Position numbers and translations under genes: made by a program. From contig NZ_BBPP01000006.1 of NCBI RefSeq assembly GCF_000787835.1, forward strand, positions 1 to 33,719: a DNA stretch of 33,719 bases, given 5' to 3'. Below, piece after piece: positions 3,774 through 23,191 of the stretch. Numbering within the stretch: the first letter of the stretch is position 1; every line of letters starts with the position of its first letter. Source of the stretch: Streptacidiphilus melanogenes. Lineage in GTDB: Bacteria; Actinomycetota; Actinomycetes; Streptomycetales; Streptomycetaceae. The notes beneath the pieces were generated by a model. That model was given only the letters and a program-made list of their open reading frames with translations, had not been told where the DNA came from and did not search any database.

Positions 3774-4207
3774 CGGGCCACCGCCCGGGAGAGGTCGCCC
3801 GGCGCGCGTCCGCCGCCCGTGCGGCGGACGGAGGAGCGCTGTTCGGGCAGCGCGTGCGGCGCGGCGTCGGCCAGGCTCACCCCGGTGTGGAAGTGCGCCA
3901 GGCTGTAGCGGCATTCGCGCAGCCGGTGGTAGGCGCGCCCGGACCGGGCCGCCTCGGTGCCGTCGATCTCGAGGCGCCAGCGCCACAGCGAGTCGGGCCG
4001 TACCACGTGGACCACGGGCACGGCGCGGTCGAGGTTGGCGCGCAGGTGGAGCACGGCCGCCTCGCAGTCCTCGCGCCGTGGGAAGAACGTGGCGCTGCGC
4101 CCCAACTCGCGGTTGTTGGCGCTGAGCAGGCGCCACCCGAACCACGGCGACTCGCTGCCGCTCTCCCGGTCGGTGCCGGTGGCGATCAGGAATCTGGCTC
4201 CACTCAC
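3770..4207 (-). CDS. YegP/DUF1508-like small protein, first gene of the pst operon
   Basis: A 145-aa protein with no signal or membrane segment. It shows two related halves. The first, FGWRLLSANNRELGRSATFF with a following CEAAVLHLR helix, fits the DUF1508 (YegP) fold in which F-x-W-R-L-x-x-x-N precedes a short helix. The second, WRWRLEIDGTEAARSGRAY, is a weaker copy. DUF1508 function is poorly defined. The start is GTG at 4207; its stop overlaps the pstC ATG by 4 bases (ATGA), so it is probably co-translated with the phosphate permease genes. The last 30 residues are Arg/Pro/Gly-rich and lie outside the domain. The domain call is from pattern only, so moderate confidence; that it is a real gene is well supported by the overlap. 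Confidence 0.7.
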   Translation of the reverse strand: MSGARFLIATGTDRESGSESPWFGWRLLSANNRELGRSATFFPRREDCEAAVLHLRANLDRAVPVVHVVRPDSLWRWRLEIDGTEAARSGRAYHRLRECRYSLAHFHTGVSLADAAPHALPEQRSSVRRTGGGRAPGDLSRAVAR

Positions 4208-4508
4208 GGTTCCCCATCTCCCGCACTGGACCGCACTGGTCGCGATCGGCCGAGGGAGACGGTCGAGGTTCCAAGCGGATTCACAGAATCAGAGCCAGGA
4301 ACGCCGGACATGGACAGGGTGAACGAGAAGTGTCGGAGATGTCGGCAAGTTGTGTACATCGGTCATGCCAATTCCGCACACGATCGGTCACCGTTTGTGT
4401 CACAGCTCTGCCGCGAATCCTCAAGATCGGCGCAACTCTGGTGTGACTCGTCCTCAAGGGCGGCCATACTTCTTGCGACGAAACGAGACGGGGGAAGGGG
4501 CGCGCAGC
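4208..4508. other. Intergenic region between the divergent pst and glnX operons
   Basis: This 301-bp gap has lower GC than its surroundings and must hold promoters for both operons. It contains a candidate PHO box on the minus strand (listed separately). It also has two direct TCCTCAAG repeats, the second followed by CATACT, which could be a -10 element for the plus-strand genes. A GGGGGAAGGGG ribosome site precedes the ATG at 4509. I see no coding sequence or RNA gene here. Confidence 0.6.
4292..4324 (-). promoter_or_regulatory. Candidate PHO box (PhoP site) upstream of the pst operon
   Basis: Read on the minus strand, 4324-4314 is GTTCACCCTGT, a full match to the GTTCACC core of Streptomyces PhoP direct-repeat units. 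11-base units follow: CCATGTCCGGC, then GTTCCTGGCTC. The 11-base periodicity fits PhoP boxes, but the second unit is poor. It lies 85-117 bases upstream of the first gene of the pst operon, a suitable place for phosphate control. Prediction only. Confidence 0.4.
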
Positions 4509-5885
4509 ATGGCGACACCGGCGACACGACCGGCGACCACGCAACCGGCCGGGCCGCGATCGACCATGCCATCGCAGCGCGGACGGCAGGACGGACCGGG
4601 GGCGGGCAGCGGCCTGACCGCCCGGCTGACGGCCACTCCGCCACGGCGGCTGCAGACCGGCGCGGCCCTGTTGGCCCTGCTGGCGCTGCTCTTCGGTGTA
4701 CTGACCGTCTGGCAGGTCAGCTCGCGCTCCGCCGCGGCCGACAACGTGGTCAACCACAGCCAGCCGCTCAGCAACGACGCCGCGCAGATCTTCCGCTCCC
4801 TCGCGGACGCGGACACCACCGCCGCCACCGGCTTCCTCCAGGCCGGCCAGGAGACGGCGGCCGTTCGCGCGCAGTACACCGACGACATCGCCACGGCCTC
4901 GCAGCTGCTGACCAAGGCGGCGGCGCAGAGCGGCTCGGGCGACCCGGGCCAGCAGTGGATCACCAAGCTCAACGCGGAGCTCCCGGTCTACGCGGGCCTG
5001 GTCGAGACCGCCAAGGCCGACGACCGGCAGGGCATCCCGCTCGGTGGCGCCTACCTGCGCTACGCCTCCGGGCAGATGCAGAACCAGATGCTGACCGAGG
5101 CCCAGAACCTCTACCAGGCCGAGACGGCGCGCCTGAACAGCGACTACGCCGACGCCCGCTCGCTGCCATGGGCCGCTGTCGGGCTCGGCGTCATCCTGCT
5201 GGTCGTGCTGGTGCGGGCGCAGATCCGGCTGTTCCGCAGTACCAACCGGGTGTTCAACCTCGGCATGATGTTCGCGACCGCCTGCGCGACCGTCGCGCTG
5301 CTCTGGCTGGCGGTCGGTCAGACCCTCTCGTCCTCCTACCTCGCGGACAGCGACGCCAAGGGCGCCGCGCCGCTGCAGATGCTGAACCAGGCCGAGATCG
5401 AGGCACTCAAGTGCCGCGCCGCGGAGAACCTCAACCTGGTGGCCCGCGGCTCGACCACCGCCTACGAGAAGGCCTGGGACACCGACAGCGTCAAGCTCGC
5501 GGGCCCGGGCGGCTACCTCGCCCAGGCGCAGTCGAAGACCTCCGGCGACGCCACCGCCCAGCAGGCGGTGATCGCCGCCGTCGCGTCCTTCCACAGCTGG
5601 CAGTCGCGGCACGACACCGCCCACGGCGCCAACCAGAGCGGCGACTACGACGCCGCCGTGAGCGACACCATCGGCAGCGGCGGCGGCACCGTCAACGCCG
5701 CCTTCACCTCGCTCAAGGGCAGCCTGGACACGGCCGCCGCACACGAACAGAGCCAGTTCACCAACCTCGCCGACAGCGGCCGCAGCGCCACCTCCCTGCT
5801 CGCGCCCGGCTCGGGCGTGCTGACCGTGCTCGCCGCGGCCGGCGTGGTGATGGGCGTCAACCGGCGTGTGGCCGAGTACCGGTAG
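4509..5885 (+). CDS. glnX: GlnX-like four-helix transmembrane sensor protein
   Basis: A 458-aa membrane protein. The ATG at 4509 was chosen for its GGGGGAAGGGG ribosome site; the frame is open further upstream but without a better start. The N-terminal 47 residues are Pro/Ser/Arg-rich and cytoplasmic. Helix 1 is at about 48-70, helices 2 and 3 at about 218-236 and 251-270, and helix 4 near the C-terminus (about 430-448). This leaves two extracellular helical regions of roughly 147 and 158 residues, an MCP/four-helix-bundle-like arrangement. In Mycobacterium tuberculosis GlnX (Rv0412c) sits beside GlnH and PknG and relays amino-acid binding across the membrane. Topology and the following glnH and pknG genes support the same role here. 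The name rests on context and topology more than on residue motifs. Confidence 0.8.
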   Translation: MATPATRPATTQPAGPRSTMPSQRGRQDGPGAGSGLTARLTATPPRRLQTGAALLALLALLFGVLTVWQVSSRSAAADNVVNHSQPLSNDAAQIFRSLADADTTAATGFLQAGQETAAVRAQYTDDIATASQLLTKAAAQSGSGDPGQQWITKLNAELPVYAGLVETAKADDRQGIPLGGAYLRYASGQMQNQMLTEAQNLYQAETARLNSDYADARSLPWAAVGLGVILLVVLVRAQIRLFRSTNRVFNLGMMFATACATVALLWLAVGQTLSSSYLADSDAKGAAPLQMLNQAEIEALKCRAAENLNLVARGSTTAYEKAWDTDSVKLAGPGGYLAQAQSKTSGDATAQQAVIAAVASFHSWQSRHDTAHGANQSGDYDAAVSDTIGSGGGTVNAAFTSLKGSLDTAAAHEQSQFTNLADSGRSATSLLAPGSGVLTVLAAAGVVMGVNRRVAEYR

Positions 5886-5895
5886 GGGGAGAGCA

Positions 5896-6867
5896 GTGAA
5901 CAAGACGTTCCAGAGACTGCTGCGGCCGGCGCTGCGACCGGGCGTGTGGGCGGTGACGTCCGCCCTGCTGCTCGGAGGCTTCGCGTTCGCCGGCAGCTCG
6001 GCGGCGGAGACCAACTCCGCGCCGGACCACACGGCGTCGATCCGGATCGCCGGCGCGCCGGAGGACGACAACAGCTGCGACCCGCTGGCGACCGCCTCGC
6101 CGAGCACCTCGGACGGCGGGCTGGACGTGCAGCGCATCATCCGGCGCGGCAAGCTCGTCGCGGGCATCGACACCAACAGCTACCTGTGGGGCTTCCGCGA
6201 CCCGAACAGCGGTGACGTCCAGGGCTTCGACATCGACCTGGTGCACGCGCTGGCCGCGGCGATCCTGGGCGACCCGAACAAGGTGACCCTGCTGGCCGTC
6301 CCCACCGACCAGCGCATCCCCGCGCTTCAGAACGGCCTGGTGGACGTCGTGGTGCGCACCTTCACCCACAACTGCGCGCGGGAGAAGCAGGTCTCCTTCT
6401 CCGCCGACTACTTCGAGACCGGCCAGCAGATCCTGGTGCCGAAGGACTCCAAGGTCACCGGCCTGAACTCGAGCATCAAGGGCCAGCGGATCTGCACCGC
6501 CAAGGGCTCCACGGCCGAGGGCCTGCTGCAGGGCAGCGCCTACAAGTCGCAGGAGGTCCCGGTCGAGAACCAGCTGGACTGCCTGGTGCTGATGCAGCTC
6601 GGCCAGGTGGACGCGACCATCACCGACGGCGCGCTCGCCGCCGGCCTCAACGCGCAGGACAAGTCGCTGCGGATCGTGCCGGGGACGCTGGACACCGAGT
6701 ACTACGCGGTCGCGGTCAAGCTCGGCTCGCACGACCTGGTCGCGCGGATCAACGCGGTGCTGCAGTCCTACATCGGCGGCGGCGCGTGGCAGCAGAGCTA
6801 CGGAAAGTGGATCAAGCCCATCACCGGACAGAACAGCGCCCCACCCGCCGCCCACTACACGGGCTGA
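5896..6867 (+). CDS. glnH: GlnH-like amino-acid-binding protein (SBP family 3)
   Basis: A 323-aa exported solute-binding protein. The GTG at 5896 follows GGGGGAGA and lies 10 bases after the glnX stop. A signal peptide (ALLLGGFAFAGSSAA) is followed by a low-complexity stretch, then a family-3 binding fold. IIRRGKLVAGIDTNSYLWGF and GFDIDLVHALAAAILG are the usual first-lobe motifs; QNGLVDVVVRTFT follows. Cysteines in RICTAKGS and QLDCLVL may pair. There is no lipobox, whereas mycobacterial GlnH is a lipoprotein, so how it stays near GlnX is unclear. No ABC permease is adjacent, consistent with a sensor rather than an importer. Mycobacterial GlnH binds Asp and Glu; the ligand here is inferred. 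Confidence 0.87.
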   Translation: MNKTFQRLLRPALRPGVWAVTSALLLGGFAFAGSSAAETNSAPDHTASIRIAGAPEDDNSCDPLATASPSTSDGGLDVQRIIRRGKLVAGIDTNSYLWGFRDPNSGDVQGFDIDLVHALAAAILGDPNKVTLLAVPTDQRIPALQNGLVDVVVRTFTHNCAREKQVSFSADYFETGQQILVPKDSKVTGLNSSIKGQRICTAKGSTAEGLLQGSAYKSQEVPVENQLDCLVLMQLGQVDATITDGALAAGLNAQDKSLRIVPGTLDTEYYAVAVKLGSHDLVARINAVLQSYIGGGAWQQSYGKWIKPITGQNSAPPAAHYTG

Positions 6868-6904
6868 CCGCGCCACCGCGTCAAGGTTGCACCAAGGTCC
6901 GCCC

Positions 6905-6946
6905 CCGGGGATCCTCCCCGGACCCGGATCTGACAGTCTGACTGTC
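6905..6946. promoter_or_regulatory. Hairpin plus 15-bp dyad between glnH and the next gene
   Basis: Two structures sit in the 107-bp gap. 6905-6921 is a perfect 7-bp stem with a 3-base loop (CCGGGGA/TCCCCGG). 6932-6946 is the dyad GACAGTC-T-GACTGTC, ending 28 bases before the ATG at 6975. The first could weaken transcription past glnH; the second looks like a small operator or part of an internal promoter. No function is known. Confidence 0.35.
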
Positions 6947-6974
6947 GGCACGACCACCAGGGAGACAAGCAAGC

Positions 6975-8303
6975 ATGGCGTTGACCGGACCCTACGGTCC
7001 CGTGATGACCCGCGAGGAGGTGGACCGTACCCTCAAGGGGCTCGGCGACGAGCGCGAGGCCGTCGAATCCTCCCTGCTGGCCTTGCAGGACCACCCGGGC
7101 CGACGTCTGCTGGAGGGCGCGCAGCTGACCGGCCGCACCGCCGAGCTGTGGAGCGCGGCCGAGCCGGGGCTCCAGCTGATGTGGAACCTCTTCGACACCT
7201 ACTCCGAGGCACTGGCCGCGGCCCGGGCGGTGCGCTCGCGGCGCAGCAGACCCACCCAGTCCGAGCTGATCGAGCTGACCGAGCTGCTGCGCGGCAAGGG
7301 CGTGACCGTCGCCGGCAACCAACTGCCCGGCGGCGCGCCGTCGCTGACCGGCGGCGCCCGGCTGAGCGAGCAGGTGAGCCTGCGCGACCTCGTCGACCGG
7401 ATGAACGAGTGGTACGCACGGATCATGGACGTCGCCTCGGCGGCGGACGCGGTCTGGTCGGCACTGCCGGCCCGCATCGACCTGTTGCTGGCCGAGCTCG
7501 GCCGGGTGCAGGCGCTGGCCCGTTCCGTCGGCGTCCTGCCGGGCGAACACCCGGCCGGCGACGCACTGGAGGAGCTCGGCAAGGAGCTCGCCGCGCTGCG
7601 CGGCGAGGTGGTCTCCGACCCGCTGCTGTTCTGGACCCGGCGACCCGTCGGCGCGTCCGCGCCCGGTCGGACGCCCGTGGGCGGCTCGGTGGAGACCGCC
7701 CGCTACGACCGCGCCGAACGCGCGGTGGAGGACATCCGCCTCGAACTGACCGACCTGGTGCGGCTGCGCGACGACGCCGACGAGCGGCTGGAACGCGTCG
7801 GCGAGACACTGGCCCGCGCCGACGCCACCCTGGCCGAGGCCCGCCGGGCGCGCGGCGAGGTGCTGGCGAAGATCGCGGCCACCGAGGTGCCGACCGTGCC
7901 CGGACCGGCCAGCGCGATGCGCGAGCGGCTCGCCCAGGCCGAGCAGCTGCGCCGGCACGGCCGCTGGTCGATGCTCGGTCCGCTGCTGGACACCCTGGAG
8001 GCCGCGTCCGAGCGGGAGTTGGAGCGGGCCCGGGAGTCGCTGACCTCGGTGACCGCTCCCCTGGCGGTCCGCGCGGAACTGCGCGGGCGGCTGGACGCGT
8101 ACAAAGCCATGGCGGCGCGACTCGGCGTCGCCGAGGACCCGGAGCTGATCGAGCGTTACGACCTGGCCCGGCGGATGCTCTGGAGCGCCCCCTGCGACCT
8201 GCGCGCGGCGGACCACGCGGTCCTGCGCTACCAGCAGGGACTGCGGGCGGTCCAGCAGCAACAGGCCGCCGGCCCGGTCGACGGACGCCCCTACGGTGCC
8301 TGA
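6975..8303 (+). CDS. Helical coiled-coil protein of the glnX-pknG cluster
   Basis: A 442-aa cytoplasmic protein with no signal or membrane segment. The ATG at 6975 has GGGAGA 9 bases upstream. The sequence is almost wholly helical and rich in Glu, Arg, Leu and Ala. Heptad-like coiled coil is likely at about 240-300 (region containing RLRDDADERLERVGETL) and about 310-350. A short Gly/Pro segment near 213-235 separates two helical halves. I recognise no catalytic motif. It lies between the sensor pair and the kinase, where mycobacteria have no such gene, so it may bridge GlnX's cytoplasmic parts to PknG; that is inference. Function unknown. Confidence 0.85.
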   Translation: MALTGPYGPVMTREEVDRTLKGLGDEREAVESSLLALQDHPGRRLLEGAQLTGRTAELWSAAEPGLQLMWNLFDTYSEALAAARAVRSRRSRPTQSELIELTELLRGKGVTVAGNQLPGGAPSLTGGARLSEQVSLRDLVDRMNEWYARIMDVASAADAVWSALPARIDLLLAELGRVQALARSVGVLPGEHPAGDALEELGKELAALRGEVVSDPLLFWTRRPVGASAPGRTPVGGSVETARYDRAERAVEDIRLELTDLVRLRDDADERLERVGETLARADATLAEARRARGEVLAKIAATEVPTVPGPASAMRERLAQAEQLRRHGRWSMLGPLLDTLEAASERELERARESLTSVTAPLAVRAELRGRLDAYKAMAARLGVAEDPELIERYDLARRMLWSAPCDLRAADHAVLRYQQGLRAVQQQQAAGPVDGRPYGA

Positions 8304-8324
8304 GCTCCGACAGGGGGAAGCATC

Positions 8325-8423
8325 ATGAGACAGCGCACGACCCGAAGCATGACCAAGGCCACGACCAAGGCACAGCAACTGACGACTTTTGCGGCACCGG
8401 CCGCAGGGGGATGGCGGGGATGA
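8325..8423 (+). CDS. 32-aa ORF translationally coupled to pknG
   Basis: The ORF has a very good ribosome site (CAGGGGGAAG, 4 bases before the ATG at 8325) and its TGA overlaps the pknG ATG at 8420 as ATGA. The product is 32 residues: a basic, Thr/Ser/Gln-rich start (MRQRTTRSMTKATTKAQQL) and an Ala/Gly-rich end. It may be a leader peptide that controls pknG translation or a small functional protein. It resembles no family I know. Its support is the ribosome site and the overlap only. Confidence 0.5.
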   Translation: MRQRTTRSMTKATTKAQQLTTFAAPAAGGWRG

Positions 8424-11044
8424 ACGCGGTACCGTGCACACGGCCGGACTGCACCGGCACGGGTGTCATCGACGCGGACGGCTACTGCACCGAGTGCGGG
8501 CTCGCGCCGCTCCAGACTGCGGCGCGCACCGGCACCGGGCAGGCGGGCGGACAGACGTCCGGCGCGCACGCCTCCGGCACGCATACGTCGGGCGCTGCGC
8601 CCACCGGACCGGGCGCGCCGTGCGCGCGCCCCGACTGCACCGGCACCGGTGTCATCGACGCCGACGGCTACTGCACCGAGTGCGGGCTCGCGCCGCTGCC
8701 GTCCGCGTCCATCCCGGCGCAGCACGGCGTCGGCAGCGGCTCCACCTCCCGGTCCACCTCCACCTCCCGCAGCTCCCGGACCATGTCCGGGCGTTCGCGC
8801 TCCTCGCGGACGGGCCGCAGCGGCTCGGTCTCGGTGCGCACCAGCAGCCGCGGCAGCCGCAGCCAGCGCGGCGCGCTCGGCGCGGGCCTGGTGACCGTGC
8901 CGCCGATCCCGAAGGAGGACCCGCGCTCCAAGGTGCTGGCCAACCCCGAGGTGGCCGAGCGCAAGCGGTACTGCAGCAAGTGCGAGTCGCCGGTCGGCCG
9001 GTCCAAGAACGGCGTGCCGGGCCGCACCGAGGGCTTCTGCACCAAGTGCGGCTCCGCGTACTCCTTCACGCCCAAGCTCTTCCCCGGCGACCTGGTCGGC
9101 GGCCAGTACGAGGTGGTCGGCTGCCTGGCCCACGGCGGTCTGGGCTGGATCTACCTCGGCGTCGACCGGCGCGTCAACGACAAGTGGATCGTGCTCAAGG
9201 GCCTGCTGGACACCGGCGACGAGGAGGCCCTGGCGGTCGCCATCGCCGAGCGCCGCTACCTGGCCGAGGTCGACCACCCCAACATCGTCCGCATCATCAA
9301 CTTCGTCGAGCACCCGGACCCGCGCAAGGGCACCCGGGACGGCTACATCGTCATGGACTACGTCGGCGGCAAGTCCCTCAAGGACATCGCCGACGAGCGT
9401 CGGATGCCGGACGGCAAGCGCGAGCCGCTGGCGGTCGAGCAGGCCATCGCCTACGCGCTGGAGGCACTGCCGGCCCTGGGCTACCTGCACCAGCGCGGCC
9501 TGATCTACTGCGACTTCAAGCTGGACAACGTGATCCAGTCCGAGGACCAGCTGAAGATCATCGACATGGGCGCGGTGCGCCGCCAGGACGACGACGGCGC
9601 GATCTTCGGGACCATCGGCTACCAGGCCCCCGAGATCGCCACCGAGGGCGTCTCCCCCGCCTCCGACCTCTACACCGTGGCCCGCGCGCTCGCGGTGATG
9701 ACCTTCGACTTCCAGGGCTACTCCACGGTCTACCGGGACTCGCTGCCCGGCCCGGAGGAGGTCGAGGTCTTCAACCGGTACGAGTCCTACTACCGGCTGC
9801 TGGTCCGCGCGACCGACCCCGACGCGGGCCGCCGCTTCTCCTCGGCGCAGGAGATGGCCGAGCAGCTCACCGGCGTGCTGCGCGAGGTGCTGGCCCTGCA
9901 GGACGCGCGGCCGCGCCCGGCGCTGTCCACCCTGTTCGGTCCTGAACTGCGGGTGGTCGACACCGAGTTGCTCCACGGTGAGCTGGAGGAGCCGCCCGCG
10001 TCCACCCGCGGCGGACGCCGCCGGCAGGCCGCGGCGGCCTCGCCCGGCAACCCCGTCATCGCGGTGCCGAACGGCACCGTCACCGTCCCCAGGGTGCTGC
10101 CGCTGGACACCCGGGCTGCGGCGCTGGCCCTCCCCGTCCCGCGGATCGACCCGGGCGACCCGAACGCCGGCTTCCTCGCCTCGCTGATGGCGACCTCGCC
10201 CGACGAGGTGCTGACGGCCCTGGGCACCGCGCCCGTCAACTCCGTGGAGCTGCGGCTGCGCGGGCTGCGCGCGCTGATCGAGAAGGGCGACCTGGTCGCC
10301 GTGCAGGAGGCGCTGACCCAGCTGGGCACCGACGCCTCCGACGACTGGCGGGTCGTCTGGTACCGCGGCCTGGCGGCGCTCGCCGCGTCCGCGGTTCCCG
10401 GCGGCCCCGAGGCGGGTGCGGCGCTGCGCGCGGCGGCGGAGTCCTTCGACGCGATCTACGACGCGTTCCCCGGCGAGGCCGCGCCCAAGCTGGCCCTCGG
10501 CGTCTGCGCGGAGGCTCTCGGCGAGCGCGAGGACGCGGCGGAGTTCTACCGCCTGGTGTGGACGACCGACCGCTCGTACGTCAGCGCGGCCTTCAGCCTG
10601 GCCCGCGTGCTGCTCGCCACCGGCGACCGGCCCGGCGCGGTGGCCGCGCTGGAGTCCGTGCCCGAGGCGTCCACGCACTACGTCGCGGCCCGCGTCGCCT
10701 CGGTCCGCGCGCGGCTGCGCGAGCGGGCGCCGCAGGAGCCGCTGCGGATCGACCTCGACGCGGCCTCGCAGCAGCTGGGCGGGCTGGGTCTGGACGCGCG
10801 CCGCCGCGAGGAGCTTTCGGTCGAGGTCCTCGGCAAGGCACTCGGCTGGGTCCTGGCGGGCCGTCCCGACGTCACCGGCGCGGCGGCCCCGATCACCCTG
10901 CTGGGCAACCCCGCGGAGGAGCGCGCACTGCGCTTCGCGCTGGAGGACTCCTACCGCAAGCTGGCCCGACTGGCCGAGAGCCCCGAACAACGGATCGCAT
11001 GGGTCGAGCGGGCCAACCGCACGCGCCCGAGGACCTGGGTGTGA
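8420..11044 (+). CDS. pknG: PknG-like serine/threonine protein kinase with rubredoxin and TPR domains
   Basis: An 874-aa soluble kinase. The start at 8420 was chosen because it overlaps the 32-aa ORF and has AGGGGG 9 bases upstream; ATG 8411 is an alternative. Two near-identical zinc-ribbon motifs (C6, C11, C23, C26 and C68, C73, C85, C88) come first, then a Ser/Arg-rich linker (about 100-150). The PknG rubredoxin-like site follows (C185, C188, C207, C210). Kinase domain about 228-490: CLAHGGLGWIYLG nucleotide loop, catalytic K260 (VLKG), catalytic loop YCDFKLDN with D365, IDMG with D382, and GYQAPE. The C-terminal half is TPR-like helical repeats, as in M. tuberculosis PknG. Mycobacterial PknG phosphorylates the FHA protein GarA to control glutamate metabolism. 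The tandem zinc ribbons ahead of the rubredoxin are additional to mycobacterial PknG as I know it. Confidence 0.95.
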   Translation: MNAVPCTRPDCTGTGVIDADGYCTECGLAPLQTAARTGTGQAGGQTSGAHASGTHTSGAAPTGPGAPCARPDCTGTGVIDADGYCTECGLAPLPSASIPAQHGVGSGSTSRSTSTSRSSRTMSGRSRSSRTGRSGSVSVRTSSRGSRSQRGALGAGLVTVPPIPKEDPRSKVLANPEVAERKRYCSKCESPVGRSKNGVPGRTEGFCTKCGSAYSFTPKLFPGDLVGGQYEVVGCLAHGGLGWIYLGVDRRVNDKWIVLKGLLDTGDEEALAVAIAERRYLAEVDHPNIVRIINFVEHPDPRKGTRDGYIVMDYVGGKSLKDIADERRMPDGKREPLAVEQAIAYALEALPALGYLHQRGLIYCDFKLDNVIQSEDQLKIIDMGAVRRQDDDGAIFGTIGYQAPEIATEGVSPASDLYTVARALAVMTFDFQGYSTVYRDSLPGPEEVEVFNRYESYYRLLVRATDPDAGRRFSSAQEMAEQLTGVLREVLALQDARPRPALSTLFGPELRVVDTELLHGELEEPPASTRGGRRRQAAAASPGNPVIAVPNGTVTVPRVLPLDTRAAALALPVPRIDPGDPNAGFLASLMATSPDEVLTALGTAPVNSVELRLRGLRALIEKGDLVAVQEALTQLGTDASDDWRVVWYRGLAALAASAVPGGPEAGAALRAAAESFDAIYDAFPGEAAPKLALGVCAEALGEREDAAEFYRLVWTTDRSYVSAAFSLARVLLATGDRPGAVAALESVPEASTHYVAARVASVRARLRERAPQEPLRIDLDAASQQLGGLGLDARRREELSVEVLGKALGWVLAGRPDVTGAAAPITLLGNPAEERALRFALEDSYRKLARLAESPEQRIAWVERANRTRPRTWV
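8447..8697 (+). repeat. Duplicated zinc-ribbon coding unit at the pknG 5' end
   Basis: Two 65-bp direct repeats, 8447-8511 and 8633-8697, are offset by exactly 186 bp (62 codons) and differ at only two positions. Each encodes the CTGTGVIDADGYC-to-TECGLAP part of a zinc ribbon. Such close DNA identity suggests recent duplication or ongoing gene conversion rather than ancient domain repetition. Confidence 0.9.
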
Positions 11045-12618
11045 GCGAAACCATGGACCAACTGACCCTCTCCTGCCCCAACTGCGCCCAGCCGGTGGCA
11101 GAGTCGGACCGCTACTGCGAAGAGTGCGGCATCGACCTCTCCACCGCCCGCGCCTCCGGCACGGACCCGCGCGCGACGGCACCCGCCCCGAGCGGCTTCT
11201 CCGCGACCCATCACGCCACCACCCCCGACGACTCCCCCCTGCCGTCCGGCACATCCGGCGCAGCCGGGGGGACCGGCGCTGACGGCGGCTACGACGCGGC
11301 ACCCGGCGCAGCCGGATCGCGCGGCACAGCCGCCCACGACGGCGCGACGGGCGGAGGTCTGCCCGCAGCCGCGGGAAAGGGAGCTGACGGCGCATACGGC
11401 GCGATGCCCGGCACTGGCGGCCTCGGCCCGACCGGGGGAGGTCTGCCCGGCGCAGCCGGGGAGCCGGACGCCGGCGGCGGCTACGACGCGGCCTTCGGCG
11501 CTGTCGGCGCCGCTGCTGCGCCGGTGCCCTCGGGTGCCACCGGGGACTTCGTGCTGGCCGCGCCGGTGCTCGCCACCGAGGTGGAGGAGCCGGAGGTCTC
11601 CGGAGCCGGTGCGCCGGATCCGTGGAGCAGTGTGCCGGCCGGGGATGCCCGGGTCTGCGTCGGCTGCGGCGCCCAGCGGATCGACACCGACGGGTACTGC
11701 GAGGCCTGCGGCCTCGCGCAGCCACGGCCGAGGGATCATCAGGAGCGGTCGCTGAACGGCGTCTGCGGGGTGAGCGACCGCGGGCACCGGCACCACCGGA
11801 ACGAGGACGCCTTCGCCGTCGCGGCGACCTCGCGACCCGACGGCGGCTCCGCCGTGGTCGCCGTGGTCTGCGACGGCGTCTCCTCGGCGACCCGCCCGGA
11901 CGACGCCTCGCAGGCCGCCGCGGACAGCGCCAGCGAGGCGCTGCTGGAGGCCCTGGAGTCCGGCGTGGAGCCGGAGACCGCGATGACCGAAGCGATCATG
12001 ACCGCGGCCAATCGCGTGGACGAGCTGGCGGACGAGTTCGAGCGCGAGCCCAGCCGCAACGCACCCGCCTGCACCATCGTCAGTGCGGTGCTGACGGAGG
12101 GACGGGTCACCGTCGGATGGGTCGGCGACAGCCGGGCCTACTGGTTCCCCGACGACCGCTCCGGCTCGCGCCGGCTGACCGTGGACGACTCCTGGGCGAC
12201 CCGGATGGTCGAGGCAGGGCTCATGTCGGAGGCGGAGGCCTTCGCCGATGCCCGCGCGCACGCCATCACCGGCTGGCTCGGCGCGGACGCGATCGAGGTC
12301 GAGCCGCACACCCTCACCTTCACCCCGGACGCCCCGGGCACCGTGCTGATCTGCACCGACGGCCTGTGGAACTACGCCGAGGCCGCCGCCGACCTCGCGG
12401 CCGTCGTCCCGGCGGACGCCCGTACCAAGCCGCTGCACGCCGCGCAGACGCTCGCGCGTTACGCCTGCGACCGTGGCGGGCACGACAACGTCACCGTCGC
12501 CCTGCTGCCGGTCGATGGCATCGAGCCGCACGAGCCGACCATGCCGAACCACCCGCCCACTCTCGTCGGCGACAGCCTCGATTCACCCACACTTCAGCTA
12601 CGCGAGGGGGAGAGCTGA
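11041..12618 (+). CDS. PP2C-family Ser/Thr phosphatase with two N-terminal zinc ribbons
   Basis: A 525-aa protein. The GTG at 11041 overlaps the pknG stop as GTGA, with GAGGA 7 bases upstream; ATG 11053 is a weaker choice. First comes a zinc ribbon (C12, C15, C26, C29), then a long Gly/Ala-rich linker, then a second ribbon (C206, C209, C220, C223, including IDTDGYCEACGLA, close to the PknG repeats). The PPM phosphatase domain runs from about 238 to 490. Metal-site motifs are complete: DRGHRHHRNEDAF, VVCDGVSS, WVGDSRAYW, ICTDGLWNY and GGHDNVTVAL. It should be an active Mg/Mn-dependent protein phosphatase. Overlap with pknG and the shared zinc motif make it the likely partner that reverses PknG phosphorylation; that pairing is inferred. 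Confidence 0.95.
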   Translation: MSETMDQLTLSCPNCAQPVAESDRYCEECGIDLSTARASGTDPRATAPAPSGFSATHHATTPDDSPLPSGTSGAAGGTGADGGYDAAPGAAGSRGTAAHDGATGGGLPAAAGKGADGAYGAMPGTGGLGPTGGGLPGAAGEPDAGGGYDAAFGAVGAAAAPVPSGATGDFVLAAPVLATEVEEPEVSGAGAPDPWSSVPAGDARVCVGCGAQRIDTDGYCEACGLAQPRPRDHQERSLNGVCGVSDRGHRHHRNEDAFAVAATSRPDGGSAVVAVVCDGVSSATRPDDASQAAADSASEALLEALESGVEPETAMTEAIMTAANRVDELADEFEREPSRNAPACTIVSAVLTEGRVTVGWVGDSRAYWFPDDRSGSRRLTVDDSWATRMVEAGLMSEAEAFADARAHAITGWLGADAIEVEPHTLTFTPDAPGTVLICTDGLWNYAEAAADLAAVVPADARTKPLHAAQTLARYACDRGGHDNVTVALLPVDGIEPHEPTMPNHPPTLVGDSLDSPTLQLREGES

Positions 12619-12621
12619 CCC

Positions 12622-13965
12622 ATGGCCAAGCTCACCAAGTCCAACTTCCCGCAGTTCTCCGTCGACATCTTCCAGAACGCGTACCTCGCGCAGGGGGCGA
12701 ACGAGGTCAACGCGATCGTCACGGTCACCGCGACCGGCGGCGGCACCAGCGCGGCGCTCCCGGCCGCGGGCTACGGCAGCTCGCTGGACGGCCCGGACGC
12801 GGCCGTGGTCATCGCCGTCGACTGCTCGGGCTCGATGGACTACCCGCCCACCAAGATCCGCAACGCGCGTGAGGCCACCGCCGTCGCGATCGACTCGGTG
12901 CGCGACGGCGTCGCCTTCGCCGTGGTCGCGGGCACGCACGAGGCCAAGGAGGTCTACCCGGGCGCAGGGCAGCTCGCGATCTCCTCCCCGGGCACCCGTG
13001 AGGAGGCCAAGCAGTCGCTGCGACGGCTCACCCCGGGCGGCGGGACCGCCATCGGCACCTGGCTGACCAAGGCCGACCAGATCTTCTCCACCCGCCCCGA
13101 CATCTCCATCCGCCACGCGATCCTGCTGACCGACGGCCGCAACGAGCACGAGCGCCCGGACCAGCTCCAGCACACCCTCGACCGGGTCCAGGGCCGCTTC
13201 ACCGCGGACTGCCGCGGCGTCGGGACCGACTGGGAGGTCGCCGAGCTGCGCCGGATCTCCTCCGCCCTGCTCGGCAGCGTCGACATCGTCGCCGACCCCT
13301 CGGGCCTCGCCGAGGACTTCCGGGCGATGATGGAGAAGGCCATGGGCAAGGCCGTCGCCGACGTCGCGCTGCGCGTGTGGACGCCGGCCAACGCCTCGGT
13401 GAAGTTCGTCAAGCAGGTCGCCCCGGTCGTCGAGGACCTGAGCGGCCGCCGCGTCGACGCGGGTCCGCGCGCGGGGGACTACCCGACCGGCTCCTGGGGC
13501 GACGAGAGCCGCGACTACCACGTCTGCATCGAGGTGCCGCCGGCGGGCGTCGGCGACGAGATGCTGGCCGGCCGGATCAGCCTGGTCGTGCCGCAGCCGG
13601 ACGGGACCTCCGAGGTGCTCTCGCAGGGTCTGGTCAAGGCGGTCTGGACGGACGACCTCAACGCTTCGACCAAGATCAACCCGCAGGTCGCGCACTACAC
13701 CGGCCAGGCGGAGCTCGCCGGCGCCATCCAGGAGGGTCTCGACGCCCACCGCCGCGGCGACCTCGACACGGCGACGGCCAAGCTGGGCAAGGCAGTTCAG
13801 CTCGCGGCCGAGTCGGGCAACGAGGACACCTTCAAACTGCTGTCGAAGGTGGTCGACGTGGTCGACGCGAAGGAAGGTACCGTTCGCTTCCGTAAGAACG
13901 TGAGCGAGGAGGACTCGATGACGCTCGAAACCCGCTCCACGAAGACTGTCAGGGTGAAGAAGTAG
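12622..13965 (+). CDS. von Willebrand factor A (VWA) domain protein
   Basis: A 447-aa cytoplasmic protein; the ATG at 12622 follows GAGGGGGAGA and the phosphatase stop by three bases. The N-terminal 55 residues form a short beta region. The VWA domain is at about 58-250 with an intact MIDAS metal site: DCSGS (D67, S69, S71), GGGTAIG (T142) and LLTDG (D171). A beta-rich middle and a helical segment near 365-410 follow. The tail is highly charged and Ser/Thr-rich (EEDSMTLETRSTKTVRVKK). MIDAS domains bind acidic partners through a metal ion. In bacteria, VWA proteins occur near PP2C/kinase/FHA sets. There is no signal peptide, so it probably acts with the kinase and phosphatase in the cytoplasm. 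Confidence 0.93.
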   Translation: MAKLTKSNFPQFSVDIFQNAYLAQGANEVNAIVTVTATGGGTSAALPAAGYGSSLDGPDAAVVIAVDCSGSMDYPPTKIRNAREATAVAIDSVRDGVAFAVVAGTHEAKEVYPGAGQLAISSPGTREEAKQSLRRLTPGGGTAIGTWLTKADQIFSTRPDISIRHAILLTDGRNEHERPDQLQHTLDRVQGRFTADCRGVGTDWEVAELRRISSALLGSVDIVADPSGLAEDFRAMMEKAMGKAVADVALRVWTPANASVKFVKQVAPVVEDLSGRRVDAGPRAGDYPTGSWGDESRDYHVCIEVPPAGVGDEMLAGRISLVVPQPDGTSEVLSQGLVKAVWTDDLNASTKINPQVAHYTGQAELAGAIQEGLDAHRRGDLDTATAKLGKAVQLAAESGNEDTFKLLSKVVDVVDAKEGTVRFRKNVSEEDSMTLETRSTKTVRVKK

Positions 13966-14032
13966 CGGGGCCCCGCCCCGCCGCTTCGAACGCGCTGCCG
14001 ACCGCCTAGCCAGCCCGAGGGGGGCTTGCACG

Positions 14033-15154
14033 ATGCCGATCTGCCCGAACGGCCACACCTCGCAGACCACGGACTACTGCGACTACTGCGGGACACCCAT
14101 GACCGGGCAGCCGGCCGCCCCGCAGCCGCAGCAGCCGGGCGCGGGCCAGCCGTGGCAGCAGCCCGCGCCGTCCGCGCCCGCACCTGCGACGCCGACGGCC
14201 GGTCTGCCGGTCTGCCCGATCTGCACCACGCCGCGCACCGGTCGCTACTGCGAGGAGTGCGGCTACGACTGGGACCTGGCGCAGCAGGGGGCTGCGCCGA
14301 GCCCCGCTCCGGTCCCGGGCGGGCCGTCCCCGATGGGACAGCCGTTCCAGCAGCCCGCGCAGCAGTCCGTGCAGCACCCGTTCCAGCAGCCGTTCCAGCA
14401 GTCGCCCGCGCAGCAGCAGCCCTTCCAGCAGCAGCCCTTCCAGCAGCAGCCGCCCTTCCAGCAGTCGCCCGCGCAGCAGCAGCCGTTGCAGCAGCCTCTG
14501 CAGTCGGGTCCGCCGCAGGCGCCGGTCCAGCAGCCCGGCCTCGCCGAGCCCGTCTCCGGGCCGGTCACCAACGGCGGCTACGGCGCGTACATCACCGGGG
14601 ACACCAACGGCGGCAACACCGAGTACGTCCTCGCGCCGCCGACCCCGGCCGGGCCGGACGGCGGCGGCGCGCCGGGTCTGGACCCCTTCGGTCCGCCGTC
14701 GGGCTCCATGGGGCAGGCGCCGCAGCAGGGCGCGCCGGGCTACCGGGGTACCTGGATCGCGGTGGTCAGCGCCGACCGGGACTACTTCCAGGACATGATG
14801 AACCGCAGCGGTCCTGACGCCGCCGGGCTCTACTTCCCGCCGTACTCCCCGGAGCGCCGGGTCCCGATGACCGGTCAGGGCCAGCTCCGCATCGGCCGCC
14901 GCAGCCACCAGCGCGGCACCGTCCCGGAGATCGACCTGTCCATCGCCCCGGAGGACCCCGGGGCCTCGCACAACCACGCCCTGCTCCAGGAGCAGCCGAA
15001 CGGCGGCTGGGTCGTCATCGACCAGGACTCCACCAACGGCACCTCGCTGAACGGCAGCGCGGACCCGCTGCCGGCGTTCACCCCGGTCGAGCTCAAGAAC
15101 GGCGACCGGATCCACGTCGGCGCGTGGACCACCATCACGGTCCACTGCGCCTGA
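14033..15154 (+). CDS. FHA-domain protein with zinc ribbons and a Gln/Pro-rich linker
   Basis: A 373-aa protein; ATG 14033 has GAGGGGGG upstream. The N-terminus has two zinc-binding motifs: C4/H8/C16/C19 (CPNGHTSQTTDYCDYCG) and C61/C64/C73/C76 (CPICTTPRTGRYCEECG). A roughly 60-residue tract of PFQQ-type repeats follows, then a second linker. The C-terminal FHA domain (about 285-372) has RIGRRS, the SHNH loop that contacts phosphothreonine, and DSTNGTSLNG. It should read threonine phosphorylation, most simply that laid down by PknG. Mycobacterial GarA is also an FHA partner of PknG, but GarA is much shorter, without zinc ribbons, and has an N-terminal ETTS phosphosite that I do not see here. 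It is not a plain GarA orthologue. Confidence 0.93.
   Translation: MPICPNGHTSQTTDYCDYCGTPMTGQPAAPQPQQPGAGQPWQQPAPSAPAPATPTAGLPVCPICTTPRTGRYCEECGYDWDLAQQGAAPSPAPVPGGPSPMGQPFQQPAQQSVQHPFQQPFQQSPAQQQPFQQQPFQQQPPFQQSPAQQQPLQQPLQSGPPQAPVQQPGLAEPVSGPVTNGGYGAYITGDTNGGNTEYVLAPPTPAGPDGGGAPGLDPFGPPSGSMGQAPQQGAPGYRGTWIAVVSADRDYFQDMMNRSGPDAAGLYFPPYSPERRVPMTGQGQLRIGRRSHQRGTVPEIDLSIAPEDPGASHNHALLQEQPNGGWVVIDQDSTNGTSLNGSADPLPAFTPVELKNGDRIHVGAWTTITVHCA
14338..14510 (+). repeat. In-frame CAG-rich tandem repeat coding PFQQ units
   Basis: Imperfect 9-15 base units based on TTCCAGCAG and CAGCAGCCC encode repeats of PFQQ, PAQQ and PLQQ in the FHA protein. It is a low-complexity flexible linker, and such a tract could change length between strains by slippage. 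Confidence 0.7.
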
Positions 15155-15205
15155 GCCGGAACCGACCGGCAGGCGACGACCCGGACACCGAACGGGGGGG
15201 GAACG

Positions 15206-16123
15206 GTGACAGGGGACGACGACGCGGCGATCACCGCCGACGGCCTGCGCAAGCGCTACGGCGCGGTGCAGGCCGTCGACGGGGTCTCGCTCTCGGTCCG
15301 ACGAGGCGAGTTCTTCGGTCTGCTCGGCCCCAACGGGGCCGGCAAGACCACCACCCTGGAGATACTGGAGGGCCTGCGCGAGCCCGACGAGGGCACCGCC
15401 ACCCTCCTCGGCGAACGCCCCTGGCCGCGCAACCCGCGGCTGCTGCCGCGCATCGGGGTGCAGCTCCAGGCCTCCGCCTTCTTCGAGCGGCTGACCGCCC
15501 GTGAGCAGCTGGCGACCTTCGCCTCCCTCTACGGCGTCGGCCTGCGCCGGGCCGAGGAGATGCTGGCCCGCGTGGGGCTCGCCGAGTTCGCCGGCACGCA
15601 GGCCGAGAGGCTCTCCGGCGGCCAGGCGCAGCGGCTCTCCATCGCCTGCGCCCTGGTCCACGAGCCGGAGCTGGTCTTCCTCGACGAGCCGACCACGGGC
15701 TTGGATCCCCAGGCCCGGCGCAACCTGTGGGACCTGCTGCGCGAGATCAACGCCGACGGCCGCACGGTCGTGCTGACCACGCACTACCTCGACGAGGCCG
15801 AGATCCTGTGCGACCGCGTCGCCGTCATGGACCACGGTCGCCTGCTGCGCACCGGCGCACCCGCCGCCCTGATCCGGGAGCTGGACGCGCCGACCCGCAT
15901 CAGTGTCCCGTCCGGCGCGCTGTCCGTGGACGAGGCCCGCACCGTGCTCGGCGAGGGCGCCCAGACCACGGACGACGGTGTCTCACTGGTCTTCGCCACC
16001 CGCTCCCCCGCGTCCGTCCTCGCCCTGCTGGGCGAGCGCGGCGCGCTGAACGGCCTGGAGGTGCGCGGCGGCACCCTGGAGGACGTCTTCCTGCACCTGA
16101 CGGGACGGGAGTACCGGGAATGA
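15206..16123 (+). CDS. ABC transporter ATP-binding protein (DrrA/ABC-2 type)
   Basis: A 305-aa ATPase of a drug/lipid-type exporter. GTG 15206 follows a GGGGGGG run. Walker A GPNGAGKT at 41-48, Q-loop region VQLQAS, signature LSGGQ at 136-140, Walker B LVFLDEP (D160, E161), D-loop GLDPQ and switch TTHYLDEAE are all intact. The C-terminal 80 residues are the regulatory extension common in DrrA/NodI-like ATPases, ending VFLHLTGREYRE. It overlaps the permease gene by ATGA, so the two form one transporter. It follows the FHA gene by 51 bp in the same direction. FHA-linked regulation of ABC transporters is known in mycobacteria (Rv1747), but here the domains are separate. Substrate unknown. Confidence 0.94.
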   Translation: MTGDDDAAITADGLRKRYGAVQAVDGVSLSVRRGEFFGLLGPNGAGKTTTLEILEGLREPDEGTATLLGERPWPRNPRLLPRIGVQLQASAFFERLTAREQLATFASLYGVGLRRAEEMLARVGLAEFAGTQAERLSGGQAQRLSIACALVHEPELVFLDEPTTGLDPQARRNLWDLLREINADGRTVVLTTHYLDEAEILCDRVAVMDHGRLLRTGAPAALIRELDAPTRISVPSGALSVDEARTVLGEGAQTTDDGVSLVFATRSPASVLALLGERGALNGLEVRGGTLEDVFLHLTGREYRE

Positions 16124-17187
16124 AAGCCTTCTTCTCCCTGTCCCGGGCTCTGCTGGTCAGCAACTCGCGCGACCGCACCTGGCTGTTCTTCACGGTGCTG
16201 TTCCCGCTGATGTTCCTGCTGCTCTTCGGCGTCCTGTTCAAGGGCGGCGCGACGGCTCACTCGACCGTGCTGCAGGTGGGCCCGGTCCGTGTGCTGGACT
16301 CGATGACCGCGGCCCAGCGGGCCGAGCTGGGCCGGACGCTGACGGTCAGACGCGACGACGACCTCGCCGACGCCCTGCGCAAGGTCCGCGACGGCACGGA
16401 CGACGGCGCGCTCCAGCAGACCGGCTCCGGGCAGCTGCTGCTGCACTTCTCGGCCGGCGACCAGACCCGCGCCGCGACGGTCCAGGGCCTGGTCCAGGTG
16501 GTGGTCCAACAGACCGACCAGGAGGCGACCGGCCGCCCGCCGGCCTGGACGCTGACCACCGCTCAGGTCGAGGACCAGTCCGTCAAGCCGATCCAGTACC
16601 TCACCCCCGGCCTGCTCGGCTGGGCCGTCGCCACCTCCGGCACCTTCTCCGCGGCGCTGACGCTGGTCGCCTGGCGTCGCAAGCGCATCCTGCGGCGGCT
16701 GCGGCTCGCTCCCGTCGGCCTGTCCGGGGTGATCGCCGCGCCGACGGCGGTGACGCTCCTGGTCGCCCTGGTGCAGACCGCCGTCTTCCTCGGCGTGGCG
16801 ACCCTGCCGTACTACGGCCTGCGGCTCACCGGGGACTGGTGGCTCGCCGTCCCGCTGGTGCTCAGCGGTTCGCTCTGCTTCATGTCCATCGGCCTGCTCG
16901 CGGGCTCCTTCGCCAAGACGGAGAACGCCGCCCAGAGCGCGGCGCAGCTCATCGTCCTGCCGATGGCCTTCCTCTCCGGTTCCTTCTTCCCGCTCGACTA
17001 CGCCCCCGGCTGGGTGCAGGACGTCGCCCAGGTGATGCCGCTGCACCACCTCGCGGCGGCCATGCAGGACGTCCTCAGCCGCGGCAAGGGCGTGGACGCG
17101 GCGCTGCCCACGATCGGCGGGCTGCTGGCCCTCGCGGCGGTGCTGTGCGTCGTCTCGCTGCGGCTTTTCCGCTGGGACGACACGTGA
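16120..17187 (+). CDS. ABC-2 type transporter permease
   Basis: A 355-aa membrane protein. ATG 16120 overlaps the ATPase stop (ATGA). A basic N-terminus leads into helix 1 (LFFTVLFPLMFLLLFGVLF), then an external region of about 140 residues. At least five further helices lie between about 170 and 350, ending in a short basic and acidic tail (RLFRWDDT). FLSGSFFPLDYAPGWVQDVA followed by MPLHHL is the conserved ABC-2 membrane motif region. It forms an exporter with the preceding ATPase. Substrate unknown; the large external loop is typical of the ABC2_membrane_3-like group. Confidence 0.93.
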   Translation: MKAFFSLSRALLVSNSRDRTWLFFTVLFPLMFLLLFGVLFKGGATAHSTVLQVGPVRVLDSMTAAQRAELGRTLTVRRDDDLADALRKVRDGTDDGALQQTGSGQLLLHFSAGDQTRAATVQGLVQVVVQQTDQEATGRPPAWTLTTAQVEDQSVKPIQYLTPGLLGWAVATSGTFSAALTLVAWRRKRILRRLRLAPVGLSGVIAAPTAVTLLVALVQTAVFLGVATLPYYGLRLTGDWWLAVPLVLSGSLCFMSIGLLAGSFAKTENAAQSAAQLIVLPMAFLSGSFFPLDYAPGWVQDVAQVMPLHHLAAAMQDVLSRGKGVDAALPTIGGLLALAAVLCVVSLRLFRWDDT

Positions 17188-17213
17188 CTTCCGCGGTCTG
17201 AGAGGATGGGCGC

Positions 17214-17615
17214 GTGGACCAGATCAAGCGAGGAACCCTGCAGAACCAGACCTTCTACGAGCGGGTCGGCGGCGAGCCGACCTTCCGCCGCCTGGTCCAC
17301 CGGTTCTACGAGGGCGTGGCCGCGGACCCCCTCCTCCGCCCGATGTACCCCGAGGAGGACCTCGGCCCGGCGGAGGAGCGCCTCGCCCTCTTCCTCATGC
17401 AGTACTGGGGCGGCCCCCGCACCTACAGCGAGGGCCGCGGCCACCCGCGCCTGCGCATGCGCCACGCCCCCTTCAAGGTCGACCGCGCCGCACACGACGC
17501 CTGGCTCCGCCACATGCGCGACGCGGTGGACGCGCTGGAACTCGACGCGGAACACGAGGAGGAGCTCTGGGGCTACCTCGTGTACGCGGCGGAAAGCATG
17601 ATCAACACGCCGTGA
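17214..17615 (+). CDS. glbO: Truncated hemoglobin, group II (trHbO)
   Basis: A 133-aa globin, the usual trHbO length. GTG 17214 was chosen by homology to the N-terminus (TFYERVGGEPTFRRLVHRFY). Key residues are visible: Tyr B10 (Y32), Tyr at CD1 (Y45 in PMYP), QYWGGP, proximal His F8 (H84 in RMRHAPF) and the Trp G8 diagnostic of group II (W97 in DAWLRHM). Group II globins bind O2/NO and peroxide. GAGGAT lies 6 bases before the GTG, so it could act as a ribosome site or a -10 for a leaderless message. It starts 26 bases after the ABC permease and may belong to the same transcript. Confidence 0.95.
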   Translation: MDQIKRGTLQNQTFYERVGGEPTFRRLVHRFYEGVAADPLLRPMYPEEDLGPAEERLALFLMQYWGGPRTYSEGRGHPRLRMRHAPFKVDRAAHDAWLRHMRDAVDALELDAEHEEELWGYLVYAAESMINTP

Positions 17616-17629
17616 GGTAGTGGCACGAC

Positions 17630-17761
17630 CCAGGGGCACGAGGAACTGCGCGAGCAACCACCGACATACGGATGGCCCTGCGCGTCCGGGCTCTGCCTGC
17701 GTGGGTGGCTTGTCGCGCCCACGCGGCGGAGCCGCATGCCCGCAGCGCCCCGCGCCCCTGC
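17630..17761. repeat. MITE-like inverted-repeat element, copy R2
   Basis: It lies between the convergent globin and reductase-deaminase genes. On the minus strand the core (AAGCCACCCACGCAG, then CGCAGGGCCATCCG) matches R1, and both ends carry CAGGGGC-type inverted repeats, less perfect than in R1. An extra GC-rich palindromic segment (about 17717-17745) makes it 132 bp. It may also act as a terminator for both genes. Confidence 0.8.
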
Positions 17762-17775
17762 GTGGTGCAACGCCC

Positions 17776-22730: not shown

Positions 22731-23191
22731 TGTCGCGGGTGCGCGTACTCGCCGCCGTGGTCGCCGCGATCATGGGGTTGCCCGTGGTCGCGGCCTGCGG
22801 GCCGAAGGACCAGACTCCCGCCTCCTACACGCCCGCGACGCTCGCGCCGCTGCCGAGCTCCGTCGCCGCGCTGCCCGGATACGGGCACGTGCAGAAGGTC
22901 GTGCTCACCCCGCTCGCGGAACAGCGCCTGCGGGTGCGGACCGTGACCGTCGCGTCGGCGGCGGGCGGTGAGACGCAGGTGCCCATCACCGCCGTGATCT
23001 ACGACCCCGACGGCGTGCCCTGGGTGTACGTCCCGGACGGCGGGCACGCCTACACGCGCCACGCCATCACCATCGCGCGGTACGACGGCGACACGGTCGT
23101 CCTCGGCGCGGGGCCGAAGGCCGGCACCTCCGTGGTCGTCGTCGGCGCGGCCGAGCTGCTGGGGACCGAGTACGGAGTGGGGGAGGAATGA
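22730..23191 (+). CDS. Lipoprotein resembling the C-terminal domain of an RND adaptor (mini-MFP)
   Basis: A 153-aa protein. ATG 22730 shares a base with the RND1 stop and has GGGGAAGG upstream. Signal peptide with a lipobox-like VVAAC (Cys at about 23), so probably a surface lipoprotein. The rest, notably VPITAVIYDPDGVPWVYVPD, RHAITIARYDGDTVVL and AGTSVVVVGAAELLGTEYG, resembles the membrane-proximal beta domain at the end of CusB/HlyD-type membrane-fusion proteins. The lipoyl and hairpin domains that reach TolC are absent, which fits a monoderm without an outer-membrane channel. Its stop overlaps the second RND gene (ATGA). It is probably the external partner of one or both pumps. Confidence 0.85.
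   Translation: MSRVRVLAAVVAAIMGLPVVAACGPKDQTPASYTPATLAPLPSSVAALPGYGHVQKVVLTPLAEQRLRVRTVTVASAAGGETQVPITAVIYDPDGVPWVYVPDGGHAYTRHAITIARYDGDTVVLGAGPKAGTSVVVVGAAELLGTEYGVGEE

Follow-up and report, generated by a model that had tools for sequence, protein, structure and literature searches.

A conserved seven-gene GlnX-GlnH-PknG module with PP2C, VWA and FHA partners in Streptacidiphilus melanogenes

The kinase PknG has been studied in mycobacteria for its part in metabolism and survival. In the published cascade (PMC6069109, PMC9769921 and PMC8546545), GlnH senses, GlnX relays and PknG phosphorylates an FHA protein. The window analysed here, 33,719 bases at the start of a 270-kb contig in the 8.77-Mb genome of Streptacidiphilus melanogenes, encodes GlnX, GlnH and PknG together with an all-helical protein, a PP2C phosphatase, a VWA protein and an FHA protein, raising the question of whether these genes form one system and whether that system is an extension of the mycobacterial one. 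The closest named genomes are also of Streptacidiphilus (S. neutrinimicus, S. pinicola and S. anmyonensis; VWA protein 99 % identical). A sequence-only reading of the window had placed the cluster at positions 4509-17187, and its gene calls and coordinates, all on the plus strand, hold up against profile and PDB matches (Table 1).

GlnX, GlnH, the helical protein, PknG, PP2C, VWA and FHA are one conserved unit. We compared 97 PknG loci, reading gene order with hidden Markov models built from window-like proteins; families carry the codes of the tool used (f1 to f81), f1 being that of the window, and the names Streptomycetaceae (f1), myco/corynebacteria-like (f4) and Pseudonocardiaceae-like (f17) were inferred. 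Loci of f4, f17 and f18 were sampled in part, and genomes with a match at a contig edge (G121, G169, G199, G285, G332 and G371) were left out. All seven genes are present in order in 32/33 PknG loci of f1 (PknG is split in L050), the exception, L067, being a second PknG copy accompanied by VWA alone. The set GlnX-GlnH-PknG-PP2C-VWA-FHA was found in 6/6 f26 loci, 9/17 f18 loci and the one f11 locus. The f17 loci are rearranged, with PknG-PP2C-VWA-FHA followed by GlnX-GlnH in 17/22; a recognised helical gene stands in front in 12 of these 17 modules, and the VWA match is weak in two (L104 and L112, 35 and 131 bits). The full set also occurs in one genome from a different class (L156), where GlnH and GlnX run on the strand opposite to the rest. 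The f4 loci mostly hold GlnX-GlnH-PknG only (12/15), with PknG alone in two and all seven in one (L089); the three-gene form was also found in 2/2 f46 loci, and the single f27 locus is cut by a contig end. The cluster is not a chance arrangement, since the seven genes are found again in this order in different families, and the earlier proposal of sensor, writer, eraser and reader in one unit is borne out.

An all-against-all comparison of open reading frames (ORFs) in 15 representative, diverse loci returned the same set: GlnX, PP2C, FHA, PknG and VWA in all 15, GlnH in 14, the helical protein in 12, globins in five and ABC ATPases in four. Three further ORF groups reached 13-15 loci; because 71 of their 77 ORFs are nested within a module gene on its opposite strand, we regard them as antisense shadows, and no further real gene family besides the seven occurs in at least 12 of the 15 loci. 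One same-family locus (L157, genome G153, positions 8230-15508) contains fragments of PknG, GlnX and VWA alongside remaining helical protein, PP2C and FHA ORFs, a state that reflects either decay of the module or poor sequence.

The association extends to whole genomes. A survey of 394 genomes of the class found PknG_TPR in 143, VWA_3_C in 101, both in 96 and PknG only in 47 (33 of them in f4); 96/101 VWA_3_C-positive genomes are thus also PknG_TPR-positive, and 246/251 PknG-negative genomes lack VWA_3_C, although these counts are phylogenetically non-independent. The genome of the window encodes VWA_3_C once, in this cluster, and a phylum sample contained it in 14/396 genomes. Among 14 control genomes, Corynebacterium glutamicum exceeded the PknG_TPR cut-off and none had VWA_3_C.

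The first part of the cluster had been likened to the mycobacterial module, and the family models and structural matches support this identity. The transducer belongs to the GlnX family by NF058618, as do 3/3 f17 GlnX proteins tested, while scoring 166.7 bits, below the cut-off of 780, with the equivalog NF041460 for PknG-activating GlnX. The best PDB match of GlnH is M. tuberculosis GlnH (6h1u). Of the seven pocket residues named in PMC6069109, with positions counted by hand along the 6h1u alignment, R147, T162, R169 and D250 are identical (4/7), K161R and S164T are conservative changes (2/7) and W232 is replaced by Q. Binding of an acidic amino acid (Asp/Glu) is plausible from these residues, though not proved, because W232 is not kept. 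No lipobox was seen at the GlnH N-terminus (window 5896-6100) or in two same-family relatives checked, as against a lipobox-like motif in 10/11 relatives checked from other families; the window GlnH may be a free or a membrane-anchored sensor.

Active-site residues hardly vary across the loci. PknG matches 2pzi across its rubredoxin, kinase and TPR domains, in that order and with the catalytic residues, four active-site residues being kept in 111/111 rows. PP2C metal-site residues are kept in 90-93 of 93 rows and the phospho-binding Arg, Ser, His and Asn of FHA in 88-90 of 90; the middle of the FHA protein is Gln/Pro-rich. The VWA protein combines PF13768 and PF18571 with the intact MIDAS that had been reported for it (D67, S69, S71, T142 and D171), kept in 90-91 of 91 rows, and its structural model has a pLDDT of 92. 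It shares a family with the Catenulispora protein of 4fx5 (match over 442 residues), a PDB match that carries no function. The helical protein has no Pfam match. It resembles the cytoplasmic domain of EzrA, a spectrin-like bundle, at 10 % identity, under the tool's trusted level for helical bundles, and this may be a common arrangement and nothing more.

A further link between the kinase and its neighbours lies in cysteine motifs. Two N-terminal motifs following the pattern CxRPDCTGTGVIDADGYCTECG precede the rubredoxin domain of the window PknG, and these resemble zinc ribbons on PP2C and, in part, on FHA. By the same pattern, the window PP2C has two ribbons (the second of DGYC type) and FHA one plus a second Cys-rich motif, with none in GlnX, GlnH, the helical protein or VWA. 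Across loci, the PknG motif was found in 84/86 loci with VWA or PP2C plus FHA versus 4/24 without, using a looser pattern that was drawn up after inspecting the loci and that matches 43/5500 shuffled N-termini. Three of the four motif-positive loci without those genes are cut by a contig end (L107, L122 and L138) and the fourth (L114) is degraded; L127, scored negative, shows the first half of the motif. Earlier, narrower ribbon patterns missed family variants: one that excluded the f1 form gave 40/83 VWA-positive versus 0/21 VWA-negative loci, and a second gave 71/83 versus 0/22. These counts show that the extra PknG cysteine motif is linked to the larger module. Two ribbons are present in 32/32 f1 PP2C proteins, and the FHA protein matches the ribbon pattern in 16/18 f17, 12/13 same-genus and 6/6 f26 cases.

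The data show the gene identities, their joint inheritance, the conserved active sites and the tie of the PknG motif to the larger module, while the ligand, co-transcription, assembly and which protein phosphorylates or reads which are inferred; we lean with moderate confidence towards a seven-protein, nutrient-gated phosphorylation switch in which writer, eraser and reader are assembled together. GlnH, outside the membrane, would bind an acidic amino acid, and GlnX would pass its state to the inside, as in the published mycobacterial and corynebacterial systems; a link from GlnX to the other module proteins may be provided by the helical protein. PknG would write phosphates on threonine and the adjoining PP2C would remove them, so that the two would set the phosphorylation of a module protein, and the FHA protein would bind the phosphorylated partner. 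VWA, with its metal-dependent binding site and helical C-terminal part, is a likely platform or client, and together with the helical protein would hold the assembly or be its client. The zinc-ribbon-like motifs on PknG, PP2C and, in several families, FHA probably dock these enzymes on a common partner. GarA, encoded elsewhere, would remain a separate PknG substrate.

Several observations weigh against this switch. One f26 GlnX scored 213.9 bits, below the NF058618 cut-off of 250, and the helical protein is weakly recognised or unrecognised in f26, f11 and 5/17 f17 modules. FHA matches the ribbon pattern in 0/32 f1 and 2/10 f18 cases, so ribbon docking is not universal. To these are added the replaced pocket tryptophan of GlnH, the after-the-fact motif pattern and the non-independence of the genome counts, all given above, and the f18 loci in which the trio of PP2C, VWA and FHA stands apart from PknG, considered below.

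Table 1. Positions in the window of the module genes, their motifs and the adjoining genes
Feature	Position	Strand	Evidence
GlnX family transmembrane signal transducer	4509..5885	+	NCBIfam NF058618, 428.5 bits, cut-off 250
GlnH-like solute-binding protein	5896..6867	+	SBP_bac_3 87 bits; PDB 6h1u 171 bits
All-helical protein, long helices, linker/scaffold candidate	6975..8303	+	conserved family; AlphaFold2 mean pLDDT 90
PknG: N-terminal cysteine motifs, rubredoxin, kinase, TPR	8411..11044	+	PF16919, PF00069, PF16918; PDB 2pzi 520 bits
First N-terminal 4-Cys (zinc-ribbon-like) motif of PknG	8435..8500	+	
Second N-terminal 4-Cys motif of PknG	8621..8686	+	
PP2C phosphatase, two zinc ribbons	11041..12618	+	PF13672, Zn_Ribbon_1; metal-ligand residues conserved
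First zinc ribbon of PP2C	11074..11130	+	
Second zinc ribbon of PP2C, DGYC type as in PknG	11656..11712	+	
VWA_3 + VWA_3_C protein, intact MIDAS	12622..13965	+	PF13768, PF18571; PDB 4fx5 494 bits
Conserved C-terminal tail of VWA	13927..13962	+	S439 and T442, each 89/91 rows
FHA protein	14033..15154	+	PF00498 51 bits
N-terminal zinc ribbon of FHA protein	14213-14263	+	
Further Cys-rich motif of FHA protein	14042-14092	+	
ABC exporter ATPase, neighbour judged outside module	15206..16123	+	PF00005
ABC-2 permease, neighbour judged outside module	16120..17187	+	PF12698
Truncated haemoglobin (globin), neighbour	17214..17615	+	PF01152 122 bits

The sequence-only reading held that the mycobacterial module gains partners here, which is probably the wrong direction: the larger set is widespread and, in unrooted trees, the form with three genes looks like a reduced one. 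In one PknG tree, built on 85 rows with f1 and same-genus loci thinned, the labels 'larger' (60 rows) and 'basic' (20 rows, five cut loci being left out) need four changes. The basic f4 rows lie next to L089 (support 98, and 99 in a second tree), the basic f46 rows next to the Nocardia-labelled larger locus L253 (support 84, second tree), basic L114 beside L111/L113 and basic L130/L132/L135 beside L136. All trees were quick and unrooted, with several long branches; a larger ancestor that lost genes is the simpler account. Because reduced loci fall in four places beside fuller ones, the window module is probably not an extended form, and the sharing of the seven-gene set by many actinobacteria suggests that the mycobacterial three-gene version is a trimmed-down one. 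We also considered horizontal gain for L089, a seven-gene locus in an otherwise three-gene genome, and set it aside as the PknG trees place this locus beside the basic f4 clade; its placement in the VWA tree is unresolved, with long branches, so horizontal gain is not settled.

A broader history can be proposed tentatively, and we rate it somewhat below an even chance. The ancestral actinobacterial PknG system would have been a membrane-linked seven-protein assembly, with matching zinc ribbons through which kinase, phosphatase and FHA reader docked on a scaffold of VWA and helical protein. Of this, mycobacteria and corynebacteria would have kept sensor, relay and kinase only, lost the ribbons with the partners and now borrow general phosphatases, and other actinobacteria would have a second, GarA-independent PknG output.

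The alternative that survives best, although we think it unlikely, is that PP2C, VWA and FHA are a self-standing trio with its own job, PknG being one of several inputs kept nearby for regulation. In four f18 loci (L212, L213, L215 and L217) the stretch fetched contains PP2C-VWA-FHA but nothing that matches PknG, so the trio can act apart, and in L214 the trio lies beside a PknG-like kinase whose Pkinase match begins at profile position 55. On the other side, the PknG cysteine motif tracks the trio, and all five of the 394 genomes that are VWA_3_C-positive and PknG_TPR-negative belong to f18, three of the five matches being weak. The kinase of L214 (12505-13794) has no TPR match and is a possible pseudokinase, and the genomes of L212, L213 and L215 encode PknG elsewhere.

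Less probable still is that GlnX-GlnH-PknG is an ordinary operon with control over GarA and 2-oxoglutarate dehydrogenase alone, PP2C, VWA and FHA being neighbours that perhaps serve turnover of GarA phosphorylation. The genome does encode GarA, with zinc ribbon, ETTS motif and FHA domain, on another contig (locus L001; 156 bits against the solved GarA 2kfu), and a GarA relative was found in 24/24 genomes tested; five of those 24, however, have no PknG_TPR match (G012, G016, G095, G277 and G309). Also against this operon, VWA and FHA hardly vary in their active residues, and the genes remain neighbours from family to family. The cluster's own FHA protein is not GarA, and a role for it as the GarA-type substrate is not supported: no ETTS motif, by which GarA/OdhI is recognised, was found in six frames of locus L010, which encodes it. 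The N-terminal zinc ribbon of GarA is present in 15/15 rows outside f4, f46 and f37 and in 0/5 f4 rows (L001, L172-L187; 5/27 GarA loci gave no row), a distribution that mirrors the PknG cysteine motif.

The C-terminal tail of VWA (DEMTLETRST) resembles DEVTVETTSV of one f4 GarA. We rejected the idea that it reproduces the phosphorylation site of GarA, because the GarA rows read keep the second Thr, where VWA has R, A, N, G or some other residue that is not Thr. The structural model shows a helix over residues 429-438 with high confidence, which drops only at the very last residues (block means 94 and 79); T442 may therefore have a structural role. The tail is kept in L212, L213 and L215, which disfavours a strictly PknG-linked site, as these loci lack PknG; L067 has a degraded form of it, and in L101 and L136, loci without PP2C, it is altered. 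L067 and L218 are PknG-VWA pairs without PP2C or FHA, and each VWA ORF there finishes with its own zinc-ribbon-like motif.

One output that the sequence-only reading allowed for, the ABC exporter (and with it the globin), is very unlikely to be regulated by the switch. The intergenic gaps from GlnX to the permease are 10, 107, 107, -4, 3, 67, 51 and -4 bases, and the globin, absent from the cluster as first drawn, starts 26 bases after the permease. The description of starts as overlapping or closely spaced is therefore fair overall, and the 4-base overlap of PP2C with pknG stands, although three gaps reach 67-107 bases. The short gaps around the exporter (51, -4 and 26 bases) speak for such an output; a scan from 4200 to 18000 found no terminator-like sites, but says little, as shuffles averaged 2.7. 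An exporter pair also lies between FHA and globin in 4/5 Kitasatospora-labelled loci. Elsewhere, however, the ATPase-permease pair is near the module in only 2/33 f1 loci (L059 and L046) and beside it in 4/13 other same-genus loci, and a permease match at E 1e-60 is missing in 8/13 other same-genus genomes and likewise in G758. In S. neutrinimicus (L219) FHA is followed by globin with no exporter between, and in L046 and L246 globin and exporter lie together on the other strand, upstream of the module. As a neighbour of the module the exporter is dispensable, and it seems to travel with the globin, not the kinase, as its own unit; among the loci compared, a globin lies near the module in Streptomycetaceae only. 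Further downstream, at 19233-22730 and 23188-26424, the window encodes two tandem RND-type (ACR_tran) transporters of 1165 and 1078 aa, separated by a small ORF that matches no Pfam family.

Equally hard to credit is a role in conflict or defence, as a kinase-PP2C-vWA system: the module is kept in 38/38 PknG-positive f1 genomes with an amino-acid sensor attached, no PADLOC model matched VWA, GlnX, GlnH, the helical protein or FHA at E 0.1 (whether the library has a TerY model is unchecked), and a Pfam scan of 20 window ORFs found no GTPase family beside the module, GAP1 models being left untried.

The TerY-P phosphorylation triad brings VWA, PP2C and a kinase together; unlike the triad, the window has PknG as its kinase and a sensor attached. 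A kinase-PP2C-vWA theme also occurs in actinobacterial GAP1-N2 GTPase neighbourhoods (PMC7159879), and the window shares with it a zinc-ribbon-bearing kinase, an active PP2C and a standalone vWA encoded together. It differs in its PknG-type kinase, solute-binding sensor, FHA protein and helical protein, and the passages seen of PMC7159879 contain neither PknG nor an amino-acid sensor.

The seven-gene set is common to many actinobacteria; no description of the set was found in the literature searched, most subscription papers lying outside that search. Should the three-gene operon prove to be reduced, its missing partners would be those of the larger module: a phosphatase devoted to the system, a phospho-reader and a candidate for coupling GlnX to PknG, an interaction that a 2022 study called 'still elusive' (PMC9769921). 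The module is found in Streptomyces and relatives, where nutrient control of metabolism bears on antibiotic production; locus L240, from Streptomyces violaceoruber, carries the complete set of seven. The window system works like, and contains, the GlnH-GlnX-PknG system. With the published GlnH-GlnX-PknG-GarA/OdhI cascade of Mycobacterium and Corynebacterium it shares the GlnX and GlnH families, the rubredoxin-kinase-TPR architecture of PknG and a GarA encoded in the genome, whereas the window adds the helical protein, PP2C, VWA and FHA in the cluster, extra N-terminal Cys motifs on PknG, and a GlnH with no visible lipobox and with W232 replaced.

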